From NCBI GenBank assembly GCA_018651745.1, contig JABIDL010000031.1, positions 13,919-77,918 on the forward strand: a DNA stretch of 64,000 nt. The letters are read 5' to 3'. Origin of the DNA: Candidatus Neomarinimicrobiota bacterium. GTDB taxonomy: Bacteria; Fidelibacterota; Marinisomatia; Marinisomatales; TCS55. The notes under the pieces are model-generated. The model made no database searches, was not told the origin of the DNA, and was given only the letters and a program-made list of their open reading frames with translations. The position numbers and the translations under genes were made by a program. Positions 30,179 through 63,817 of this stretch are shown in pieces; position 1 is the first letter of the stretch, and the number at the start of each line of letters is the position of its first letter.

Positions 30179-31309
30179 ATGAAAGAAATTGGCTCAATTC
30201 GTGCTGAAGAAATGGTTCTAAATATTGGACCTCAGCATCCATCCACGCATGGCGTTCTAAGATTGAAAGTAAAAACGGACGGCGAAATCGTTTCTGAGGT
30301 TATTCCAATCATTGGATATCTCCATAGATGTTTCGAAAAACACGCTGAAAATATCACATACGAACAGGTGATTCCTTTTACCGATCGCTGCGATTACATC
30401 GCATCGATGAACAATAATTTCGGGTTCGTGGTGGCAATGGAAGAACTCATGGATATCAAAGTTCCGGAACGCGTGGAATATATTCGCGTAATCATGGCAG
30501 AACTAAATCGCATTGCAAGTCACCTTTTGGCGTTGGGTGTGTACGGATTGGACATTGGCGCTTTTACACCATTTTTACATATGTTTCGCGATCGGGAACG
30601 TATTTTAGATATTTTTGAACTGACTTGTGGTGCCCGTTTGCTGTATAATTATATGTGGGTTGGCGGTGTCTCGCATGACCTTCCTCGAAATTTCGAAACC
30701 ATTTGCATTGATTTTCTCGATTATTTTGAACCAAATATTCCAGAATTCAACCAATTGCTGACTACCAATAAAATTTTTATTGAACGAACAGCCGACGTGG
30801 GTGTAATGCCAGCTGAAGTGGCAATTAGTTATGGCGTATCCGGCCCGAATCTTCGCGGATCCGGTGTTAAATGGGACGTCCGAAAAGATGAACCATATTC
30901 TGTGTATGATAAATTTGATTTTGAAATTCCTGTTGGTACTGGCGATCATGGAACCCTCGGAGATTGCTGGGATCGCTATTGGGTTCGTATGCTCGAAATG
31001 CAGGAAAGTTGTAACATCATTCGCCAAGCCCTGAAAGCCATTCCGGACAATGGCGATGTGCACGCCATGGTCCCCAAAAAAATCCGACCGCCAAAAGGAT
31101 CCATTTACCGAAGAACAGAAAGTCCGCGTGGTGACCTTGGGTATTACATCATTAGCGACGGTTCGCCGACGCCTTTCCGGCTAAAAATGCGCTCACCGGC
31201 ATTAACATCTTTGAGTGTGCTGGATGAGATTTCCGCCGGATGGATGATTTCGGATGTAATCGCTATTTTAGGAAGTCTAGATATTGTTTTGGGAGAAATT
31301 GACCGATGA
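30179..31309 (+). CDS. nuoD: NADH-quinone oxidoreductase subunit D
   Basis: The 49-kDa subunit that, with NuoB, forms the quinone site. The 376 residues include the N-terminal GPQHPSTHGVLRLKV motif (His residues of the quinone pocket), YIASMNNNFGFV, GDIGAFTPF, and the C-terminal ESPRGDLGYYIISDGS and SPALTSLSVLDEI segments. Everything matches a stand-alone NuoD. Its last four bases overlap nuoH. Confidence 0.97.
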   Translation: MKEIGSIRAEEMVLNIGPQHPSTHGVLRLKVKTDGEIVSEVIPIIGYLHRCFEKHAENITYEQVIPFTDRCDYIASMNNNFGFVVAMEELMDIKVPERVEYIRVIMAELNRIASHLLALGVYGLDIGAFTPFLHMFRDRERILDIFELTCGARLLYNYMWVGGVSHDLPRNFETICIDFLDYFEPNIPEFNQLLTTNKIFIERTADVGVMPAEVAISYGVSGPNLRGSGVKWDVRKDEPYSVYDKFDFEIPVGTGDHGTLGDCWDRYWVRMLEMQESCNIIRQALKAIPDNGDVHAMVPKKIRPPKGSIYRRTESPRGDLGYYIISDGSPTPFRLKMRSPALTSLSVLDEISAGWMISDVIAILGSLDIVLGEIDR

Positions 31310-52013: not shown

Positions 52014-52676
52014 ATGAGTATCCAAATTCTCAATCCTGAATTTGTATCAGTAACTCTTACATTGGATCATGTTCAAATGGCCATTCACCATGCCTTGGAC
52101 CGCACGAAGGAAATTGTCCGACAATTCATTCCAAGGAAGTCTGCCTTAAATCATTTGGAAACCAATTATATCGGTGTGTTAGGAGAATTGGCCATTCGCC
52201 AAGCCGCAGATCTGACGGGTGAATTGGAACGGAATTATGAAAAACATGAGGTGGATAGTGGTGATGTTCTCATCGATGGAAAAATGTTTGATGTTAAAAC
52301 TGAAGCTATTCCGGAAAAGTGGTTTCAAAAATTGGCTTCGGGGAAAATAAAGCAATATGATCCATATGGCTGTCGAGTTTTTACGGCAAAGCATGCACAT
52401 CATCTTAAAAAATATTCAGGTGGAATTATTTTTTGTTCAATCCCAATCTTAGCTAATGAAGAAAGTCGAGAAAATAAAATCAGAGAATCGCTTTTATTAA
52501 ACCGAGAAATTATTGTTCCGGGTTTTACAACTTCTAAGAATGTAAAGGAAAAGGAATCGACTTGGTTTACACCCGAAGATCCAAGGGGTAAAAAAAGAAA
52601 ATACAATTCAAAAAATTACATATTTCATCATTCAGAATTACAATCACTAAAAACCTTGATTTCAAATTTGGTTTAA
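52014..52676 (+). CDS. Probable type II restriction endonuclease (PD-(D/E)XK-like)
   Basis: A 220-residue protein I do not recognise by name. It lies tail-to-tail with a DNA methyltransferase, with the last 15 bases shared. A possible PD-(D/E)XK nuclease core can be read: Glu58 in GVLGELAIRQ, Asp84 in SGDVLIDGK and the Asp93-x-Lys95 pair in MFDVKTE, with the spacing typical of this fold (the third acidic position is Asp, not Glu). The context and core suggest it is the cutting partner. There is no signal peptide or membrane segment. It is not related by eye to any endonuclease I can name, and the site is unknown. Confidence 0.62.
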   Translation: MSIQILNPEFVSVTLTLDHVQMAIHHALDRTKEIVRQFIPRKSALNHLETNYIGVLGELAIRQAADLTGELERNYEKHEVDSGDVLIDGKMFDVKTEAIPEKWFQKLASGKIKQYDPYGCRVFTAKHAHHLKKYSGGIIFCSIPILANEESRENKIRESLLLNREIIVPGFTTSKNVKEKESTWFTPEDPRGKKRKYNSKNYIFHHSELQSLKTLISNLV

Positions 52677-53438
52677 TCTTTCTGCAGTCATTGCGATGAA
52701 TATTTTATTCAGTTCATAACCCACATAATCTCGACCGAGTTTTTTGGCAGCAACTGCCGTTGTTCCGGATCCCATAAATGGGTCTAAAATAGTATCACCC
52801 AAAAAAGAAAACATTCGAATCAATCGATGGGGTAATTCTTCGGGGAATGGCGCGGGATGCGAACGATCTTTTTCTGGAGAAAATCGCCATATATTATTAA
52901 TGTATTCTCGCCAATCTTCCTTGTTCAATCGACTATCTTCTTTAATTTGTTTAGACATTTTTTCCGGTTGCCCATCTTTGACAAATAGATTAATAAATTC
53001 AATGGTATTGAGTCCATAAAAATTAGGTGGATACGGATAAGAACCCATCATCAATTGATCCGTACTGCCTTTATCCCAAATAATGAGGTCATACCGAAAA
53101 AATTTAGTTTTATGTAAAATACTGGCTTCTATATCATTGTTGATATTTTGGTAATCCCGATTGTGGTGGGTATTCATAATTGCTTTTTCCATTGGAAGGA
53201 TGGGTGTGTTTATGCACAATTTTCCGTTAGGTTTGAGCACACGAAAACATTCTTTCCACACCGGAATCATCGATTGAATGTAATGATTGTAGGATCCGCT
53301 GGATTGACCGATTTGAGACGGGAACCCGTAGTCTTTTGCCTTAAAATAAGGTGGGCTCGTAATAATTAGACGGATGGATTCGTCGGGAATTTCATTCATC
53401 GTTTCGCATGATTTACGATAGATTTTATTGCTTTCCAT
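52662..53438 (-). CDS. DNA (cytosine-N4 or adenine-N6) methyltransferase, beta-class
   Basis: A 258-residue site-specific DNA methyltransferase. Catalytic motif IV TSPPY is at residues 27-31 and the SAM-binding motif I DPFMGSGTT at 219-227, so the order is IV then I, as in the beta class. SPPY is more frequent in N4-cytosine enzymes, DPPY in N6-adenine ones, so N4C is favoured. RSHPAPFPEELP precedes motif I, as in many small type II methylases. It would protect the genome from the convergent partner at 52014-52676. ATG at 53438 is the natural start. Confidence 0.88.
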   Translation of the reverse strand: MESNKIYRKSCETMNEIPDESIRLIITSPPYFKAKDYGFPSQIGQSSGSYNHYIQSMIPVWKECFRVLKPNGKLCINTPILPMEKAIMNTHHNRDYQNINNDIEASILHKTKFFRYDLIIWDKGSTDQLMMGSYPYPPNFYGLNTIEFINLFVKDGQPEKMSKQIKEDSRLNKEDWREYINNIWRFSPEKDRSHPAPFPEELPHRLIRMFSFLGDTILDPFMGSGTTAVAAKKLGRDYVGYELNKIFIAMTAERLNQI

Positions 53439-55432: not shown

Positions 55433-56296
55433 ATGATTCATAGACTCATTCTCATTATCTTATCTATTCTCGTAACTATTTTTATTGGCTGGACCTTACG
55501 AGAAACTGGGTCTTATTATATAACCGATTTACTGGAACGGCCACACCACGATAGTCATAAACTCTGGAAACCGGGCGGAACCATGGGGCATGGGTTGGGA
55601 ATCCTTGGTGGCAGTATGATGATTATCATGTTTGTCTATTCTCTTAGAAAACGAATTAAATTTTTCCAAAAATGGGGCAAATTGCCTACGTGGCTTAATT
55701 ATCATATTTTTCTGGGGATTGTTGGTCCTATCTTGGTTACTTTACATACCGCATTCAAATTTGGCGGACTTGTATCAATTTCCTACTGGTCTATGGTTGC
55801 TGTTGCTTTGAGTGGGTTTATAGGACGGTATATTTATATCAAAATTCCCCATAGGGTGAGTGGTGTTGAATTATCAAAAGATGAATTCTTGAATCGGATT
55901 CGCCTACTGACTGAAGAGATGAAAGTCGAGTTTAGTATGTCGGATGACAATATTAGCCTGATTCTTGATTTATCCGGCGCCGAAAAAATAGAGCAACGCG
56001 GGTTATGGGGCATCTTTACTATCTTTATTATGGATATTACCGGATGGGTCAAATGGTTGGGAATAAAAAATAAAATACAAAAAACATCAGCCATTCCAAA
56101 AAGTGAAATTCGAAAATTTAAAAAATCTTTAAGGCAAATCGTAAAAATGAATCGACAAATTGCATTTTGGACTGCAGCCCATTCTCTTTTTCATTATTGG
56201 CATGTGATTCATAAACCTTTTGCTTATACAATGGTGGTCATCATGTTTATTCATATAGTCTTGGTTGTCTCTTTTGGTTATAAGTGGATATTTTAG
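55433..56296 (+). CDS. Membrane b-type cytochrome-like protein (cytochrome b561/ferric-reductase-like)
   Basis: A 287-residue protein with about five to six membrane helices (roughly 3-22, 52-70, 88-108, 113-133, 192-210 and 264-283). His residues sit where helices could bind haem: H53 after a GGTMGHGLG turn, H91 and H105 in one helix (14 apart), and a cluster at H250, H254, H257 and H260 plus H274. This recalls cytochrome b561 or ferric-reductase-like quinol/haem proteins, but I cannot name a family. It starts the electron-transfer cluster and could take electrons from menaquinol. The next frame starts before or just after its stop. Confidence 0.6.
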   Translation: MIHRLILIILSILVTIFIGWTLRETGSYYITDLLERPHHDSHKLWKPGGTMGHGLGILGGSMMIIMFVYSLRKRIKFFQKWGKLPTWLNYHIFLGIVGPILVTLHTAFKFGGLVSISYWSMVAVALSGFIGRYIYIKIPHRVSGVELSKDEFLNRIRLLTEEMKVEFSMSDDNISLILDLSGAEKIEQRGLWGIFTIFIMDITGWVKWLGIKNKIQKTSAIPKSEIRKFKKSLRQIVKMNRQIAFWTAAHSLFHYWHVIHKPFAYTMVVIMFIHIVLVVSFGYKWIF

Positions 56297-56316
56297 GTAT
56301 GAGAGAGAAGCATAAA

Positions 56317-56790
56317 ATGAGTGCCAAAATGGCTAAATTATTTTTAAAAGCATCTATTATTTTATTAATCATTATTCAGTTAATTCCCTATGGAAGAAAT
56401 CATACGAATCCTCCGGTAGTTTCAGAGCCGGATTGGAACAGTATAGAAACAAAAGATTTGTTTTTTCAAACATGTCAAAATTGCCACAGCAATGAAACAG
56501 ATTGGCCTTGGTACAGTCATATCGCACCGGTTTCATGGCTGATTCAGCATGATGTTAATGAAGGACGTGAACATTTCAATGTTTCTTTATGGGGAATTCA
56601 GAAACATAATGAAGGGAAGGAAGCCGCAGAAGAATTGCAAGAGGGTGACATGCCTCCTTGGTTTTATTATATTTCGCCTCAACATCAAAAATTATCAGCA
56701 AAGGATAAGATAAAATTAATTTCAGGGTTAGTAGAAACATTCGGGCAAGAATCAGATGACCATGATGACGACCATGAACATGAAGATTGA
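56317..56790 (+). CDS. Haem-binding-domain (Haem_bd) protein
   Basis: About 157 residues with an N-terminal hydrophobic segment (signal or anchor: LFLKASIILLIIIQLIPYG) and then one CXXCH motif (TCQNCHSNETDWPWYSHIAPV). The continuation PVSWLIQHDVNEGREHFNVS and GDMPPWFYYISPQH is the pattern of the Haem_bd family, a single-haem periplasmic domain. The C-terminus is a His/Asp-rich tail (DDHDDDHEHED) that may bind metal. I chose the ATG at 56317, preceded by GAGAGAG; ATG at 56299 or GTG at 56284 are other options. It follows the b-type cytochrome-like gene. Confidence 0.82.
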   Translation: MSAKMAKLFLKASIILLIIIQLIPYGRNHTNPPVVSEPDWNSIETKDLFFQTCQNCHSNETDWPWYSHIAPVSWLIQHDVNEGREHFNVSLWGIQKHNEGKEAAEELQEGDMPPWFYYISPQHQKLSAKDKIKLISGLVETFGQESDDHDDDHEHED

Positions 56791-56883
56791 ATGATGGATC
56801 ATTGTTTAATTCTGTGATATTCATCACCAATGGAAATATACTCAAATATTATCTTTTCTGATATAATTTGAACAAAAAACATT

Positions 56884-58194
56884 ATGAATGAAACTGTATT
56901 AACTTATTTAATCGGCGGCGGGATTATTCTCATTTTTCTCGTTCCCTATATTCTATCCATGAAGCGAAAGAATAAAAGAACGAAAGATCGATTGGAAGAA
57001 ACCCGAGCTAAAAGACAGGATAAAGCGCTACTTCAACATCCAATTATCAATCGTTCGTTATGTATTGGTTGTGGTATTTGCGTGGATGCTTGTCCAGAAG
57101 GAACTGTGTTAGGTCTGATAGATGGCAAAGCAACCATTATTCATGGAAGCCATTGTGTAGGGCATGGAAAATGTGCAGAAGCATGCCCTGTTTCTGGCAT
57201 TGAAATTGGCTTAGGTGATATTAGTCAAAGAGAAGATATTCCCCAATTATCTGAGCATTTTGAGAGCAATATTCCTGGCCTCTATATCATCGGAGAGTTG
57301 AGCGGATTAGCCTTGATTAAAAATGCAATCACGCACGGCGTTGCCGCCATCAATCATATCCATAAAAATCAGATTTCAAACAATAAGGGCGAATTTGATG
57401 TGGTGATTATTGGCGCAGGACCTGCTGGTTTATCAGCTGCATTACGAGCAAAAGAGTTGGGATTGAATTATATGGTATTAGATCAAGACCAGCCGGGAGG
57501 CACTATTTTGCAATATCCTCGTCGAAAATTGGTTTTGGTTCAACCTGTAGAGCTACCATTGTTTGGTGCCTTAAAAAAAGGAGAGTACGAAAAAGAAGAT
57601 TTGTTGACTATTTGGGAAAAAGTCATTAAAGATCAGGAAGTCAGGTTGTTGTCCGGACATAGACTTTTGGGGATTACAGGAGAAATTGGGAATTTTAAAG
57701 TACAGACATCTTCAGACACTGCAGTTTCATCTAGGGTTGTATTGGCACTTGGACGACGGGGGACACCCAGAAAGTTGGGAATTCCCGGCGAAGAGTTGGG
57801 TAAAGTCATGTACAAATTGATGGATGCTGAAACCTATAAACACAAAAAACTATTGGTGGTTGGAGGTGGCGACTCTGCCATCGAAGCAGCATTGGGCTTA
57901 GCTCATCAAGAAGGCAATGATGTTACCATTTCCTATCGTAAAGAAAATTTCTTCAGACTAAAAGCCAGAAATGAAACGAATCTTGAAAAAGCTATTTCAG
58001 ATAAATTATTGAATGTGGTTTTTAATTCCAGTCCTGTCAAAATTGAAGAAAAATCTGTTACATTGAAAACGAGTGAAACAGAAATGGAAATAGACAATGA
58101 GTTTGTATTTATTTTTGCTGGAGGCGAACTGCCATTCAAATTATTAAACGAAATTGGCATTGAATTTGGAAAAAAAATTGAGGCTGCCACATGA
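56884..58194 (+). CDS. Membrane-anchored Fe-S flavoprotein (ferredoxin plus thioredoxin-reductase-like module)
   Basis: 436 residues: one N-terminal membrane helix (about 7-25), a basic linker, a ferredoxin-like domain (60-105), then FAD and NAD(P) domains. The first cluster motif, CIGCGICVDACP (C60, 63, 66, 70), is complete; the second reads CVGHGKCAEACP, with His94 where Cys is expected. A PGLYIIGEL segment near residue 131, normally at the C-terminus of such reductases, comes before the FAD motif IIGAGPAG (175-182), so the order looks permuted. NAD motif is VVGGGDSAIEAA. The redox CXXC of thioredoxin reductase is absent. Stop overlaps the next gene (ATGA). Confidence 0.82.
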   Translation: MNETVLTYLIGGGIILIFLVPYILSMKRKNKRTKDRLEETRAKRQDKALLQHPIINRSLCIGCGICVDACPEGTVLGLIDGKATIIHGSHCVGHGKCAEACPVSGIEIGLGDISQREDIPQLSEHFESNIPGLYIIGELSGLALIKNAITHGVAAINHIHKNQISNNKGEFDVVIIGAGPAGLSAALRAKELGLNYMVLDQDQPGGTILQYPRRKLVLVQPVELPLFGALKKGEYEKEDLLTIWEKVIKDQEVRLLSGHRLLGITGEIGNFKVQTSSDTAVSSRVVLALGRRGTPRKLGIPGEELGKVMYKLMDAETYKHKKLLVVGGGDSAIEAALGLAHQEGNDVTISYRKENFFRLKARNETNLEKAISDKLLNVVFNSSPVKIEEKSVTLKTSETEMEIDNEFVFIFAGGELPFKLLNEIGIEFGKKIEAAT

Positions 58195-59597
58195 TGGTCA
58201 GGTGGTGGTTTCTCTGTCTTTTTCCTGCGATGATTTCAGCACAATTCTCACCCGGGAAATTATCCAAGTATCACGCTCATTTGGAGGGCAACTCAAATTG
58301 TATCCAATGCCATGATTTGGGTAAAAAAGAAATTTCTGATGGCTGTAATGTTTGTCATACGCCCTTGAAAAAAAGGATTGATGCTAAGTTGGGATTTCAT
58401 AAGGATAAAACTGATGAATGTGGGTCCTGCCATTCAGATCATAATGGAACCAAGTTTGAACTGGTTTATTGGCCGAAAGATATCCGAAAATTTAATCATG
58501 AAAAAACAGGATACACTCTAACCGGAAAACATGATGTCGTTGAATGTGGCGAGTGTCATTCCAGAAAAAATATTACTTGGGAACCCATTCGACAATGGGC
58601 CTCCGAGCATACCCAATTCCCGGTACTGGATCGGACTTTTCTGGGTTTGAGCGCCACATGCAATTCTTGCCATGAGGATATTCATACAGATCAGGTTACG
58701 TCGGATTGTGCTTCTTGTCACAATACATCTGATTGGAAACTGGCCATTCAGGATTTTGATCATAACCAGGCCAAATTTTTGTTGACAGGTGCTCATAAAA
58801 GGGTAGATTGTGAAAAATGTCATCCTGCTCAACCGGATCATCCCAAAAAAGTCTGGAAACTTACTGGAATGGCTTATGATAATTGTTCGCGTTGTCATAC
58901 TGATATTCATAAAGGTAGTTATGGTGAAACCTGTGAATCCTGCCATACAACAGAGGATTGGAAAAAAGACCTAAAACCGTTTGACCACAGTAAAACCAAA
59001 TACCCCTTAGCCGGAAAACATATAAATGTGTCCTGTAATGAATGCCACCAAACAACGCTTGCCGGCGGGTTGCCAAGGTATCTTAGCTGCATTGGTTGCC
59101 ACGAAGATAAACATTATGCACAGTTTGAGAACCGCCGTGATGGAGGCGATTGTGCTGCTTGTCATACCGTGAATGGATTTTTACCAGCGACATTCACTGG
59201 CTCAATGCATCAGATGATACGGTTTCCTTTGGACGGCGCTCATTTGGCGGTACCCTGTAGTGGGTGTCATAAACCTGTTCAACCTGTCCAAGGAAAAACC
59301 ACAGTTCAGTTTACGTGGAAAGATATGAATTGTGCCGTTTGTCACGACGATGTTCACCGAAAGCAATTCTTAAAGCATGATAATAAGACCTGTGATTCTT
59401 GTCACATCACCGAAGCTTTTACTCGTGTTAAATTTGATCATGAAAAAACCAATTATCCATTGGATGGAAAACATATGAATGTGAATTGTCAAGAATGCCA
59501 TAAAAAGGAACAAGATCAAAATGGTCAATTTGTACGATATGCTCCTGTGCCACATCAATGTAAAGATTGTCACACATTTACCGAACAAATTCGATGA
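58191..59597 (+). CDS. Secreted multihaem c-type cytochrome, 17 CXXCH motifs
   Basis: 468 residues with a short signal sequence (VRWWFLCLFPAMISA-QF) and 17 CXXCH motifs, about one per 27 residues, so nearly all of the chain is haem-binding. A recurring unit has the form FDH..K..(Y/F)PL.G.H..V.C..CH, as in doubled-CXXCH periplasmic or surface cytochromes. No catalytic Cys/Lys haem motif (CXXCK) and no other enzyme motif is seen, so electron transfer is the likely role. It starts four bases before the end of the flavoprotein gene, and its end overlaps the next cytochrome as ATGA. Confidence 0.93.
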   Translation: MMVRWWFLCLFPAMISAQFSPGKLSKYHAHLEGNSNCIQCHDLGKKEISDGCNVCHTPLKKRIDAKLGFHKDKTDECGSCHSDHNGTKFELVYWPKDIRKFNHEKTGYTLTGKHDVVECGECHSRKNITWEPIRQWASEHTQFPVLDRTFLGLSATCNSCHEDIHTDQVTSDCASCHNTSDWKLAIQDFDHNQAKFLLTGAHKRVDCEKCHPAQPDHPKKVWKLTGMAYDNCSRCHTDIHKGSYGETCESCHTTEDWKKDLKPFDHSKTKYPLAGKHINVSCNECHQTTLAGGLPRYLSCIGCHEDKHYAQFENRRDGGDCAACHTVNGFLPATFTGSMHQMIRFPLDGAHLAVPCSGCHKPVQPVQGKTTVQFTWKDMNCAVCHDDVHRKQFLKHDNKTCDSCHITEAFTRVKFDHEKTNYPLDGKHMNVNCQECHKKEQDQNGQFVRYAPVPHQCKDCHTFTEQIR

Positions 59598-61483
59598 AAT
59601 TATTTTCCATAATTATTTTGTGTTCAATGGCATCGGCTATGCAGAATGATGAACTAATTGTGCCCGGCTATGACTGCGGAGATTGTCATGGTTCGGCCGG
59701 ATGGGATGTGATTGATCTCTCAAAATTTGATCATCAGCAAACCGGTTTTCAATTAAAAGGTGCGCATATGGTTCAGAATTGTTCACAGTGCCATTTAGGT
59801 GAAACGATTGCTCAAAAACATGACTTTCAATTGATTGCGGATGATTGTGCTTCGTGTCATTTAGATATTCATGAAACAACCTTGGGCAATGATTGTTCTG
59901 CATGTCACAATTCGGATGCATGGACTGTGACCCAAAGATCATTCGACCACAAAGCGACATTATTTCCTTTATTTGGCGCCCATCGCTTTGCAGACTGCCA
60001 AGATTGTCATCAATTTGAACCGGTCGTCAATTTTGATTATTCATCGGTAGATTGTTATAGTTGTCACCAACAAGATTATGAACAATCTACAAATCCGAAT
60101 CATATCGCTGTTCGCTTTAATGCAGATTGCAGTCAATGCCATGCTGTTCAGCAATCTACTTGGATTTCTTCTTTTGATCACGATTTAACGATTTTTCCTT
60201 TGGCGGGTCTTCACAAATCGGTTGATTGTTCAGGCTGTCATGCGGATGAAAATTATACTATTTCTTCAGATTGCTACGATTGCCATCAACAAGATTACAC
60301 CCAAACTACAGACCCAAATCATATTTCAGTAAATATCAGTACAGATTGTAAAGAATGCCACACCGAGCAGTTACCTTTATGGGCTTCATCTTTCGATCAC
60401 GATTTAACAGTTTTCCCGTTGCTCGGTCTTCATAAGCCTGTTGATTGCACCGGTTGCCATGTAGATCCGAATTCCAGCCCTTCTTTAGATTGCAATGGAT
60501 GCCATTTGCAGGATTTTGAAACAACCCAAACCCCAGATCATTCAACGTATAATTATCCGGCTGAAGATTGCAATGCCTGTCATTCCGAATTTGGCTGGAT
60601 TCCGCATACATTTATGCATGACCTTACTTATAGTTGCGGTACTTGTCATCAGCCAGACTACGACACTGCCGTTGATCCTCCGCATACTTCGGCATCGGGT
60701 TTTACGCTGGACTGCGATCTTTGTCACAGCAGTACCACCACTTGGGATGGAGCGGTATTTGACCACAGTAACGCAACAAGTGGATGTGTAACTTGTCATT
60801 TGAGTGATTATCAAGGCGCCTCAGATCCTCCTCATTCAGAGGAAACCGGATTCAGCGAATCCTGCGAACAATGCCACAACAGTACTACTACTTGGGATGG
60901 TGCTACTTTTTCTCATGAGGATATAACTACTGCTTGCAATACCTGTCACATGAATGACTTTTACGAAGAGCACAGCGATGGGTTTCCCACCGATTGCGAG
61001 AATTGTCACACAAGCACCACCGATTGGGAAGAAGTTTCTTTTTCTCATGATGACCTAACCGATGCTTGTAGCAGTTGCCACATGGATGATTTTTATGATG
61101 AACACAGCGATGGCGAGCCGACTGATTGTGAAACCTGCCATACTACAAATAACTGGGATGATGTTACCTTTGATCACGATAATGATTATTTCCCAATTTA
61201 CTCGGGTGAACATAATAATGAATGGAGTACATGTACGGCAGAGTGCCATATCAATTCGTCCGATTATTCTGTATTTTCCTGTGGATTAAACGGCGTTTGT
61301 CATGATCATAGACAATCCGAAATGGATGATGAGCATGATGGTGAAACCGGTTATTCTTATAATAGTTCAGCGTGTTATGATTGTCATCCTAATGGTGAAA
61401 AGGACGACAACAATGATGATTTCATAGATCCAACAGACTGGCGCAATCATTTAAAACGTGATCCGGATTGGATGCAACATTGA
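59594..61483 (+). CDS. Secreted multihaem c-type cytochrome, 22 CXXCH plus two atypical motifs
   Basis: 629 residues with a signal sequence (MKLFSIIILCSMASAM). I count 22 CXXCH motifs, one CX3CH (CTAECH) and one CX5CH (CGLNGVCH). Two exact-length 73-residue repeats and then four shorter units (50, 50, 44 and about 43 residues) fill most of the chain. The tail after the last motif is acidic (KDDNNDDFID) and ends WMQH. The protein is low in Lys and rich in Asp, Thr, Ser. I chose ATG 59594, overlapping the previous stop; an upstream TTG would add nine residues ahead of a good signal peptide. Confidence 0.93.
   Translation: MKLFSIIILCSMASAMQNDELIVPGYDCGDCHGSAGWDVIDLSKFDHQQTGFQLKGAHMVQNCSQCHLGETIAQKHDFQLIADDCASCHLDIHETTLGNDCSACHNSDAWTVTQRSFDHKATLFPLFGAHRFADCQDCHQFEPVVNFDYSSVDCYSCHQQDYEQSTNPNHIAVRFNADCSQCHAVQQSTWISSFDHDLTIFPLAGLHKSVDCSGCHADENYTISSDCYDCHQQDYTQTTDPNHISVNISTDCKECHTEQLPLWASSFDHDLTVFPLLGLHKPVDCTGCHVDPNSSPSLDCNGCHLQDFETTQTPDHSTYNYPAEDCNACHSEFGWIPHTFMHDLTYSCGTCHQPDYDTAVDPPHTSASGFTLDCDLCHSSTTTWDGAVFDHSNATSGCVTCHLSDYQGASDPPHSEETGFSESCEQCHNSTTTWDGATFSHEDITTACNTCHMNDFYEEHSDGFPTDCENCHTSTTDWEEVSFSHDDLTDACSSCHMDDFYDEHSDGEPTDCETCHTTNNWDDVTFDHDNDYFPIYSGEHNNEWSTCTAECHINSSDYSVFSCGLNGVCHDHRQSEMDDEHDGETGYSYNSSACYDCHPNGEKDDNNDDFIDPTDWRNHLKRDPDWMQH
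60050..60487 (+). repeat. Two tandem 73-codon units in the 22-haem cytochrome
   Basis: Units 60050-60268 and 60269-60487 each encode 73 residues with the same layout: DCY(S/D)CHQQDY, then NPNHI or DPNHI, a second CXXCH, SSFDHDLT(I/V)FPL.GLHK, and a third CXXCH in VDC(S/T)GCH. No gap is needed to align them, so this is a tandem duplication of a three-haem unit. Confidence 0.85.
60632..61192 (+). repeat. Four tandem two-haem units (50, 50, 44 and about 43 codons)
   Basis: Units start at 60632, 60782, 60932 and 61064. Each has CXXCH, a D(Y/F) segment, a second CXXCH, then a (T/D)W(D/E) turn and an FDH or FSH. Units 1 and 2 share DPPH and CHxSTTTWDGA; units 3 and 4 share EHSDGxPTDCExCHT with a six-residue deletion relative to 1 and 2, so two rounds of duplication seem likely. 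Confidence 0.8.
61241..61340 (+). repeat. 100-base direct repeat, copy 1 (cytochrome tail module)
   Basis: This stretch and 62113-62212 differ at only 3 of 100 positions by my base-by-base comparison. It encodes ECHINSSDYSVFSCGLNGVC and following residues, part of the CX3CH/CX5CH tail. The surrounding cytochrome sequence is far less similar. Confidence 0.93.
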
Positions 61484-61497
61484 GTTATGGTGCAATA

Positions 61498-62283
61498 ATG
61501 TCCTTCTTTTTAACGATAAATCTTCAAAGTGATTTGACAGATATTCCCTGTAGTGACTGCCATTCTTCAGATGGTTGGGAGCCTCTTTCTTCGACTATGA
61601 TATTTAATCATGATAATACGGATTTTCAGCTAGAAGGGAATCATCGGGGTACGGAATGCATCCAATGTCATCCGGGAAATACGATGGAAGAAATCCATAA
61701 TTTTACCCACGCAGAAACGGAATGCCAAACCTGCCATATGGATATTCATTACGGATTGATGGGAACCGATTGCCAAACTTGTCATGGTTTTGAAACGTGG
61801 GATATGTCTAATTGGAAAAAAGCCTATGAACATTTGATGTTTCCTTTATTGGGAGCACATGCTTTAATCGAATGTTCTACTTGTCATGGTGAAGATCTCG
61901 TTCAATATTCAGGAAGTTTAAGTAACGATTGTTTGCCTTGCCATACGCTTGATTATAATCAGGCTCTAGCAACCAGCTCGCATTCGGAGAATACAAACTG
62001 CATTTTGTGTCATAATACGCATGGTTGGTCTCCTGCAGATATGTCTCACCACGATTTTTTATTTCCTATTTATTCCGGAGAGCATCGAGGGGAATGGTCC
62101 ACCTGTGAAGCGGAGTGCCATATCAATTCGTCCGATTATTCTGTATTTTCTTGTGGATTAAACGGCGTTTGTCATGATCATAGACAAACCGAAATGGACG
62201 ATGAGCATGATGATGAATCCGGTTATGTTTATGAAAGTTCGGCCTGCTTTAATTGTCACCCACAAGGAAAAGAAGATGATTAG
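61498..62283 (+). CDS. Multihaem c-type cytochrome, 8 CXXCH plus two atypical motifs
   Basis: About 262 residues with eight CXXCH motifs, one CX3CH (CEAECH) and one CX5CH (CGLNGVCH), sharing the tail of the previous cytochrome. The start is uncertain: ATG 61498, a TTG at 61480 overlapping the previous stop (TTGA), or TTG 61468. None gives a textbook signal peptide, since the n-region has no Lys or Arg; the SFFLTINLQS stretch is only mildly hydrophobic. Motifs such as MFPLLGAHALIECSTCH match the units of its neighbours. The stop lies inside the beta-barrel gene. Confidence 0.85.
   Translation: MSFFLTINLQSDLTDIPCSDCHSSDGWEPLSSTMIFNHDNTDFQLEGNHRGTECIQCHPGNTMEEIHNFTHAETECQTCHMDIHYGLMGTDCQTCHGFETWDMSNWKKAYEHLMFPLLGAHALIECSTCHGEDLVQYSGSLSNDCLPCHTLDYNQALATSSHSENTNCILCHNTHGWSPADMSHHDFLFPIYSGEHRGEWSTCEAECHINSSDYSVFSCGLNGVCHDHRQTEMDDEHDDESGYVYESSACFNCHPQGKEDD
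62113..62212 (+). repeat. 100-base direct repeat, copy 2 (cytochrome tail module)
   Basis: Partner of 61241-61340, 872 bases away, with 3 differences in 100 bases, one of them changing Ser to Thr. It covers the CX3CH/CX5CH region of the 8-haem cytochrome. Confidence 0.93.
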
Positions 62284-63817
62284 GAATTTTTCACTTTTAT
62301 TATTTTTATTTCTAGCTTTTACAGGAGCTATTTTTTCCCAGGAATCTATCCTTGTTGAAGGGAAAATCACGTATTTAACAGCAGACCAAATTTATTGTGA
62401 TGTGGGTACAATTGGTGGCGCATCTGTTGGCGACACGTTGAAAGTTTTACGGAGGGAACAGGAGTTAGGATTAATCCTAATTACCAATGTTGCCAGGAAA
62501 TCATCTGTTTGTTTGTCTTTGGTTCCCGCTTCTGTGTTTCAGTTAGGTGATAAAGTTGTGCTGGATAAAATGACTAAGCCACTTTCTCAACCGAATGAAA
62601 TTGTTAAAGACCGACTGAAAGAAACAGTTGAAAAACCCCAAAAATCGAAATTGAAACAATCAGGGAATTTGAGTTTTCGATATACAGATACGCAATTTTC
62701 TAATAACAATTCTGCCAATCGAGGAATCGGATCGTTGAATTATCGCCTTCGATATGATGGACTATTTAAGCCACAATTATGGATTTACGGGCGCAGTGAT
62801 CTTGCTGATAAAGAATTTAAACTGTATCAAGCGCGCCTCACGTTTGGATCATCTACAGGAAAATTATATGTACAAGTTGGGCGCGTTTTTTCGCCTGCTC
62901 TTTCCGGAATTGGTGCAACGGACGGATTATTGGCATCAACTACTATAAAGAGGGGGATTTCTTTAGGCGTGTTGGGAGGATTTTCTCCAAATCCGCAAAA
63001 TTTGAATTTTGATAAAAATATATCAAAAACAGGCGGCTATATTCATTTTAAAAATCAATCACCAAATTTCCGGATGATTGGTAGCATCGCTTTTGCGCAA
63101 CAAAAAGTCAGCGGAAAAACCGATCGAGAATTTATTTTTTGGACATGGCGAGGGAATGTTGGGAATACATTTTCTTTAGCGATGTACCAAACAGTTGACC
63201 TTTATCCTGATACGGAAATTGGCGTAAGAAATAAAATGACGCCAACCTCCAGCCAAATATCAGTAAGATTCCGCCCGATAAAAAGTATTACAATCCGATC
63301 TAGATATTCTGCTCGGAGACAAGTTTTATATTTTGAATCAGCCCAAACGTTGCCTGATTCACTTTTTCAGGACGAACTGCGGTCCGGCTGGTATAACACC
63401 ATTCAATTATCTATGAACAATATTGGTAGTTTTCAGCTTGGCGCAAATTTAAGAAATCAAAAATCTGCCGATCGTCCCGCAGTATTGGCATTCATGAGTT
63501 TCCGTTCACCTTCAGGGTCTAATGGGCGAACGTATAATTTGAAAACAAATTATATTCGGAATGATCTGATAACCGGGGTGCGATTTACTGTTGGATTAGA
63601 TCAATCATTGGGGAAGAAAATATCAATTTATGCAGAAGCAGATGGCTATTCTTATGGATATGGAACGAATTGGTCTGATTATTTTCAACAAAGGATAAAC
63701 GTTGGAATGAATTGGCGTATTTTTTCTAAGCTTCAAATGACTTTATCAGCAGATTATACGCAGGAGGATAATTATTCATTTCAATATGTTTATGCCGGTT
63801 TGAATTACAGGTTTTAA
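62276..63817 (+). CDS. Predicted outer-membrane beta-barrel protein with N-terminal FlgT-like domain
   Basis: 513 residues from the ATG at 62276, which starts a clean signal sequence (LLLFLFLAFTGAIFSQ) and overlaps the previous stop by 8 bases. Residues about 22-100 (VEGKITYLTADQIYCDVGT, then ASVGDTLKVLR and LGDKVVLDK) resemble the small beta domain known from FlgT-C and related OM proteins. After a Lys/Pro linker come about 380 residues of alternating polar/aromatic strands, ending YAGLNYRF, the aromatic-terminated last strand usual for outer-membrane barrels. No haem motif. It closes the cytochrome cluster and may serve as its porin, by inference from position. Confidence 0.78.
   Translation: MIRNFSLLLFLFLAFTGAIFSQESILVEGKITYLTADQIYCDVGTIGGASVGDTLKVLRREQELGLILITNVARKSSVCLSLVPASVFQLGDKVVLDKMTKPLSQPNEIVKDRLKETVEKPQKSKLKQSGNLSFRYTDTQFSNNNSANRGIGSLNYRLRYDGLFKPQLWIYGRSDLADKEFKLYQARLTFGSSTGKLYVQVGRVFSPALSGIGATDGLLASTTIKRGISLGVLGGFSPNPQNLNFDKNISKTGGYIHFKNQSPNFRMIGSIAFAQQKVSGKTDREFIFWTWRGNVGNTFSLAMYQTVDLYPDTEIGVRNKMTPTSSQISVRFRPIKSITIRSRYSARRQVLYFESAQTLPDSLFQDELRSGWYNTIQLSMNNIGSFQLGANLRNQKSADRPAVLAFMSFRSPSGSNGRTYNLKTNYIRNDLITGVRFTVGLDQSLGKKISIYAEADGYSYGYGTNWSDYFQQRINVGMNWRIFSKLQMTLSADYTQEDNYSFQYVYAGLNYRF

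Follow-up and report, generated by a model that had tools for sequence, protein, structure and literature searches.

The well-studied conduits that carry electrons across the bacterial outer membrane belong to a small number of proteobacteria and receive their electrons from quinol. In the MtrCAB system of Shewanella, and likewise in PioAB and MtoAB, an outer-membrane β-barrel, which in MtrB has 26 strands (PMC12133095), is encoded in one operon with multihaem c-type cytochromes, and the Pcc (Omb–Oma–Omc) and Ext conduits of Geobacter also place a barrel gene beside cytochromes of about eight and more haems, the periplasmic Pcc cytochrome carrying 8 (PMC4245776). Electrons enter such conduits at the inner membrane through CymA, CbcL and ImcH, which join membrane helices to c-type haems and use quinol (PMC6295460). 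Published surveys of conduits start from the porins MtrB, OmbB and Ext or from these same entry proteins (PMC4245776, PMC6295460, PMC7399161), and for that reason would probably miss the gene set considered here. It lies at positions 55433–63817, on the + strand, of a window of 64,000 nucleotides (the whole stretch of DNA that was analysed) from a Candidatus Neomarinimicrobiota bacterium (GenBank assembly GCA_018651745.1, contig JABIDL010000031.1, positions 13,919 to 77,918 of the forward strand), which forms the end of contig 31 of a 1.86 Mb genome that is 96% complete. The gene set matches none of the known wires and may be an overlooked way to discharge electrons.

A preliminary description of the window had recorded seven co-directional, mostly overlapping genes at this place, with 47 CXXCH motifs in three cytochromes and one more in a Haem_bd protein, and had proposed that together they form one conduit. 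All seven genes, which we refer to as g1 to g7, are present on the + strand and the motif counts hold (17, 22 and 8, plus 1); four of the six junctions overlap (g3/g4, g4/g5, g5/g6 and g6/g7), whereas the Haem_bd gene, g2, has a short gap on either side. We consider it probable that six of these genes encode a self-contained trans-envelope conduit fed by reduced nicotinamide adenine dinucleotide (phosphate), NAD(P)H, and not recognisably by quinol. The earlier proposal is thereby supported in part, in that the genes form one conserved module with a barrel that was never found as a plain porin and is not MtrB-like, but it has had to be revised in the details of the input and of the Haem_bd protein.

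Conservation and distribution of the gene set

The six genes other than the Haem_bd gene form one conserved module. Among 199 Neomarinimicrobiota genomes surveyed, the flavoprotein gene g3 was found in 35, and the barrel, searched for independently with a 38-sequence profile, gave a match in 37; 32 genomes hold both, three hold g3 only, five the barrel only, and 159 lack both (Fisher p 2.6e-28, without correction for relatedness). The three loci with g3 only break off before the position of the barrel, and the five cases with the barrel only are short contigs or fragments. The order g1–g3–g4–g5–g6–g7 is constant in nearly all loci of the phylum with a long enough contig, and is kept across families whose g3 proteins share only 46–55% identity. 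Every full-length barrel in the phylum for which the upstream stretch is covered adjoins a multihaem cytochrome gene, on which ground g7 was rejected as a plain porin; a barrel conserved without cytochromes was not seen in the phylum, and no terminal reductase with a known soluble substrate is a constant neighbour of the cluster.

The remaining gene, g2 (56317..56790, +), encodes a Haem_bd-domain protein (PF14376, E 1.5e-33) with one CXXCH and an N-terminal anchor; its reading frame opens upstream at GTG 56284, and the best start codon is at about 56317. The preliminary description had counted it among the members of the cluster. It stands inside the cluster in 3 of about 35 loci of the phylum, that of the window included, and was rejected as a core part on this count, being a dispensable accessory and an occasional extra.

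In the window's own family the cluster is patchy, being present in 5 of the 25 genomes searched and absent from two genomes of the same genus. At one locus of the phylum (L189, G033:C85, about 31021–31263) a remnant of 85 C-terminal barrel residues persists at the flank where relatives have the whole cluster, which has apparently been lost there. Phylogenies of g3 and of g1 agree for the most part with the family grouping, though one family is split. The nearest named loci are those of Candidatus Neomarinimicrobiota, from habitats that the record names give as Saanich Inlet and the Black Sea at 150 m. It was also observed that the cluster-bearing genomes of the window's family tend to be larger than the others (median 2.5 vs 1.8 Mb; p 0.017, relatedness not corrected for).

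The gene set is not restricted to this phylum but spread over about ten bacterial phyla. The search for the same gene order in other genomes that the preliminary description had proposed gave a constant order within the phylum and the same parts in other orders outside it, in Bacteroidota, Ignavibacteriota, Calditrichota, Zixibacteria, Krumholzibacteria, Acidobacteria, Planctomycetota and Gemmatimonadota. The order is g1–g4–g5–g7–g3 in Calditrichota, Zixibacteria and Ignavibacteriota and g1–g3–g4–g5–g7 in Bacteroidota such as Maribellus, Emticicia, Saprospiraceae and Thermobacterium; Acidobacteria carry the cytochromes and barrel beside g1 and g3, and Planctomycetota carry them with a g3–g1 fusion. 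Where a g3 locus extends at least 6 kb to each side (n=38), a multihaem cytochrome is present in 36, g1 in 36, and g1, cytochrome and barrel together in 32, and of the 46 outside loci with a barrel match 45 also hold a multihaem cytochrome. Gammaproteobacterial and nitrospiral loci have g3, partly with g1 and cytochromes, and no barrel of the g7 family was recognised in them.

Emticicia oligotrophica DSM 17448 has the set on plasmid pEMTOL02 (L195, NC_018749.1:72158–93444), so the cluster may travel between strains. The genes are annotated there as 'hypothetical protein', 'NAD(P)-binding domain-containing protein', 'cytochrome c3 family protein' (twice) and 'hypothetical protein', with a gene for the haem-attachment protein CcsBA just upstream and one for a GW-domain protein downstream; CcsBA-like genes, recognised by motif and checked in one case, were found close to the cluster in three further loci of Bacteroidota. 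As this strain is culturable and carries the whole set, the proposal made here is directly testable. No paper describing the gene set was found in the open-access full-text literature (PMC), a coverage outside which most subscription papers and preprints fall, and the passages found in the papers on Caldithrix abyssi and Melioribacter roseus do not describe it.

The inner-membrane unit

The family search for each protein that had been proposed earlier returned, from Pfam, the Haem_bd domain, Fer4 with Pyr_redox, and cytochrome c7/c3 repeats. The second of these results belongs to g3 (56884..58194, +; E 1.6e-41), which encodes a membrane-anchored oxidoreductase of 436 residues with a predicted 2[4Fe-4S] domain and a part that would bind flavin adenine dinucleotide (FAD) and NAD(P). 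In an alignment of 103 homologues the FAD motif GxGPxG and the NAD(P) motif GGGDSAxE are invariant, and R352, R358 and K360 are kept; these three residues would sit where related enzymes bind the phosphate of NADPH. The nearest solved structures are YpdA, TrxR and TrxR-like ferredoxin–NADP reductases, and the FAD part is closest in sequence and fold to the bacillithiol-disulphide reductase YpdA and to the TrxR-like ferredoxin–NADP reductases, from which g3 differs in having a transmembrane anchor, two iron–sulphur clusters and no active-site cysteine. The place of that cysteine in YpdA is, we assume, the one occupied in g3 by an alanine of the GxGPxG motif. The only cysteines conserved among the homologues are those of the iron–sulphur clusters, and a function as a disulphide reductase was rejected, as g3 has neither an active-site cysteine nor a redox cysteine pair. 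The ligand set of the clusters comprises seven cysteines and H94, found in 100 of the 103 homologues, which replaces the second cysteine of the second ferredoxin motif; a histidine where a ferredoxin has a cysteine suggests that one cluster has Cys3His ligation, and H94 is a signature by which the g3 family can be recognised.

The partner of g3 is g1 (55433..56296, +), a predicted membrane b-type cytochrome of 287 residues with five predicted transmembrane helices, whose similarity to the b561 and Ferric_reduct families of Pfam is sub-threshold (Ferric_reduct 15–17 bits against a cut-off of 28). Four histidines, H91, H105, H260 and H274 in alignment numbering, are invariant in all 87 aligned homologues and form two pairs, H91/H105 and H260/H274, one pair per helix with the members of each 14 residues apart. 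Two helices that each carry such a spaced histidine pair are established as holding two stacked b haems in NADPH oxidases (NOX), ferric reductases (FRE) and bc-type cytochromes, and the four residues of g1 are predicted to be the ligands of two b haems stacked across the membrane. Neither g1 nor g3 contains a CXXCH.

In 12 loci, mostly of Planctomycetota, g3 and g1 are fused into a single chain. An AlphaFold2 model of a fused homologue (mean predicted local distance difference test, pLDDT, 85) has an N-terminal transmembrane helix, the iron–sulphur/FAD part and then five transmembrane helices, the last of which is separated from the other four by a helical domain, and it is from this model that the five-helix topology of g1 is taken. 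The fusion indicates that g3 and g1 probably act as one inner-membrane unit. The preliminary description had assigned them to separate quinol-side and NAD(P)H-side entries; in light of the fused proteins of Planctomycetota, they look like one unit leading from NAD(P)H to the periplasm and not like two alternative inputs.

The multihaem cytochromes and the outer-membrane barrel

Three multihaem c-type cytochromes follow, g4 (58191..59597, +) with 17 CXXCH motifs, g5 (59594..61483, +) with 22 and g6 (61480..62283, +) with 8; the best start codon of g5 is at 59594, and that of g6, a TTG at 61480, was picked by alignment with relatives. Residue shuffling of each protein gave a mean of 0.1–0.3 CXXCH and a maximum of 4. 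The last two share a C-terminal domain and each have one CX3CH and one CX5CH in addition, which are probably haem sites too, as relatives have CXXCH and CX4CH at these places, so that the three proteins could hold as many as 51 c-haems. Over 149 bp the 3′ ends of g5 and g6 (61238–61386 and 62110–62258) are 90% identical, which suggests that the shared domain has recently been duplicated or undergone gene conversion.

Across the phylum, relatives of g4, whose gene adjoins g3, have 14–23 haems, g5 is the variable cytochrome with 20–41, and g6, whose gene directly precedes that of the barrel, is constant in size with 8–12; a cluster has 42–71 haems. The MtrA/DmsE decahaem family TIGR03508 matches g4 (E 4e-9) and g5, in both cases far below its curated cut-off. 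Neither g5 nor its relatives have a lipobox, their N-termini reading by eye as ordinary signal peptides, and surface anchoring of g5 is therefore not evident. For haem attachment the source genome encodes CcmC/CcmF-type proteins, and no ResB-type (System II) proteins were found in it.

The last gene, g7 (62276..63817, +, with its best start codon at 62276), encodes an outer-membrane protein for which neither Pfam nor NCBIfam has a dedicated family; an FlgT_C match to its N-terminal domain is found in 13 of 38 members of the barrel family. The AlphaFold2 model (mean pLDDT 86.4) shows a clean 22-strand barrel behind this small N-terminal domain, with no plug and nothing in the lumen beyond a short helix. 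In fold it comes closest to the barrels of TonB-dependent transporters (Z 15–18.6; 368 residues aligned in the top match, root-mean-square deviation 4.0). Foldseek and VIA comparisons matched it to ushers, porins and TonB-dependent transporters; that the Mtr complex was not among the matches listed is uninformative. TonB-dependent transporters are 22-strand barrels in which a plug of about 150 residues closes the lumen, and as g7 has no plug, another filler of the lumen would be expected. The best candidate is g6, given that its gene directly precedes that of the barrel and that its haem number is constant where that of g5 varies; it would then be the cytochrome that enters the barrel. The MtrB_PioB family (PF11854) had no match at E 0.05 in the 38 barrel homologues, nor anywhere in the source genome, and g7 was accordingly rejected as an MtrB/PioB homologue. 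Searches by sequence found no solved relatives of g1, g4 or g7.

The proposed route and its alternatives

The cluster joins a barrel and multihaem cytochromes, which is what generally marks an outer-membrane conduit. It shares this operon layout with MtrCAB, PioAB and MtoAB, and g4 has the distant repeat similarity to MtrA/DmsE described above; it differs from them in a barrel with a predicted 22 strands against 26 and no MtrB_PioB match, in 42–71 haems against 20, and in an input made of an iron–sulphur/FAD protein and a cytochrome b in place of a quinol-dehydrogenase cytochrome such as CymA. The eight CXXCH motifs of g6 recall the periplasmic cytochrome of the Pcc conduits. Unlike those, however, the cluster has no outer-membrane lipoprotein cytochrome by the sign of a lipobox on g5, and its barrel has no NCBIfam family match, a comparison that did not extend to the OmbB sequence; unlike both the Pcc and the Ext conduits, it also encodes its inner-membrane input.

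As an inner-membrane entry, g1 is comparable with CymA, CbcL/MtoC and ImcH, and CbcL too has a diheme b-type part, but g1 lacks a c-haem, and its partner, separate or in the same chain, is an iron–sulphur/FAD protein. In its working the unit would resemble NOX and FRE, in which cytoplasmic NAD(P)H, FAD and two b haems are linked across the membrane through two helices with spaced histidine pairs, although the FAD domain of g3 is of the YpdA/TrxR (Pyr_redox) type with an added 2[4Fe-4S] domain and not of the FNR type, and the Ferric_reduct match of g1 is sub-threshold. By analogy, then, the system would resemble MtrCAB and Pcc on the outside and NOX and FRE on the inside, and by the sequence of its barrel it is not a member of the MtrCAB group. 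The preliminary description saw no CymA-like NapC/NrfH protein in the cluster; the genome does have a NapC/NirT-like cytochrome in another operon, on contig C16 (G000:C16, L148:6197–18324). That second multihaem operon has cytochromes with 13, 11, 17, 17, 4, 8 and 11 CXXCH, an NrfD-type membrane protein, an iron–sulphur protein and b561–multihaem fusions, and may be the respiratory system proper of the source genome.

In the NAD(P)H-fed conduit that we favour, cytoplasmic NAD(P)H, and more likely NADPH, would reduce the FAD of g3, as its motifs, fold and fusion suggest, and electrons would pass by way of the two iron–sulphur clusters, one of them Cys3His, to g1, whose four invariant histidines and predicted topology are consistent with two stacked b haems leading to the periplasmic face. 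From there, to judge by haem content and by the conserved linkage of the genes, g4 with its 17 haems would bridge the periplasm, g6 would lie inside the empty lumen of the g7 barrel, and the variable g5 would prolong the wire on the cell surface or outside it, where electrons could reach a mineral, a redox mediator or another cell. The direction of flow would most likely be outward. With no quinone step needed, such flow would spend membrane potential and not build it, so that, from the topology, redox balancing, overflow or acceptor scavenging would be likelier roles than classical respiration.

It is unlikely, in our view, that the conduit is instead fed by quinol, with g1 as a quinol-oxidising diheme cytochrome b which g3 tunes, bifurcates with or draws from, in a CbcL-type branch point between quinol and NAD(P)H. 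The weak similarity of g1 to the b561 family, which includes quinone-reactive cytochromes, would suit this arrangement, as would the complex I genes in the window, which make a quinone pool likely. Known conduits also take quinol (PMC6295460; PMC6148476). Yet Planctomycetota encode g3 and g1 as a single chain, and g1 lacks the c-haem domain of CymA, CbcL and ImcH. Electrons might also run inward, from reduced minerals, other cells or a cathode to NAD(P)H or reduced ferredoxin at g3; multihaem conduits are in principle reversible and g3 resembles TrxR-type ferredoxin–NADP reductases, but flow in this sense through g1 would run counter to the membrane potential and call for a donor below NADPH, and no constant neighbour gene points to lithotrophy. 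We hold this reading to be quite improbable.

A further reading, that the cytochromes are a periplasmic or outer-membrane redox store or serve in detoxification of oxygen, peroxide or metal ions, with a barrel that admits a small substrate and no electrons crossing the outer membrane, would suit the presence of the cluster in cultured Bacteroidota such as Emticicia and the missing lipobox of g5. We regard it as very improbable, since a plugless 22-strand barrel, left unfilled, would be an unusually large open pore, since barrel and cytochromes are inseparable, and since there are up to 71 haems per cluster, a number for which we know of no comparable reductase.

Several considerations also weigh against the NAD(P)H-fed conduit itself. 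It is known from genes and predicted folds, and the direction of the electrons, the extracellular exposure of g5 and the insertion of g6 into the barrel are each proposed. The case for NAD(P)H as the donor is built on motifs, with ferredoxin, or quinone at g1, as the alternative, and the loci outside the phylum, having been collected by similarity to g3, make up a biased sample. The cluster also occurs in several cultured Bacteroidota and Planctomycetes known as aerobes, so that its general role cannot be an anaerobic extracellular respiration.

We think it possible, though we hold the idea tentatively, that the module represents a separate and widespread class of conduit, a NADPH-fed, quinone-independent exporter in which an iron–sulphur/FAD protein and a diheme cytochrome b, fused in Planctomycetota, are wired to 40–70 c-haems and to a 22-strand barrel that forms a lineage by itself. 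Such a class would be mobile between phyla and would include the clusters of the cultured Bacteroidota and Planctomycetes. If so, cells would discharge NADPH outside at low potential and pay for it in membrane potential, much as NADPH oxidases do, though here with two membranes to cross. A self-contained operon with its own NAD(P)H-side entry would widen the range of bacteria that may exchange electrons with minerals or cells, and would place extracellular electron transfer in bacteria not suspected of having any.

Two other features of the source genome may be recorded. Genes resembling those of a Rieske/cytochrome b complex lie, as read by eye, beside one for a 1009-residue protein with eight CXXCH (L149, G000:C11:66000–80000). 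In the window itself, at 52014–53438, an N6_N4_Mtase DNA methyltransferase gene on the − strand converges on and overlaps a gene for 220 residues without a Pfam match, and the two are perhaps a restriction–modification pair.

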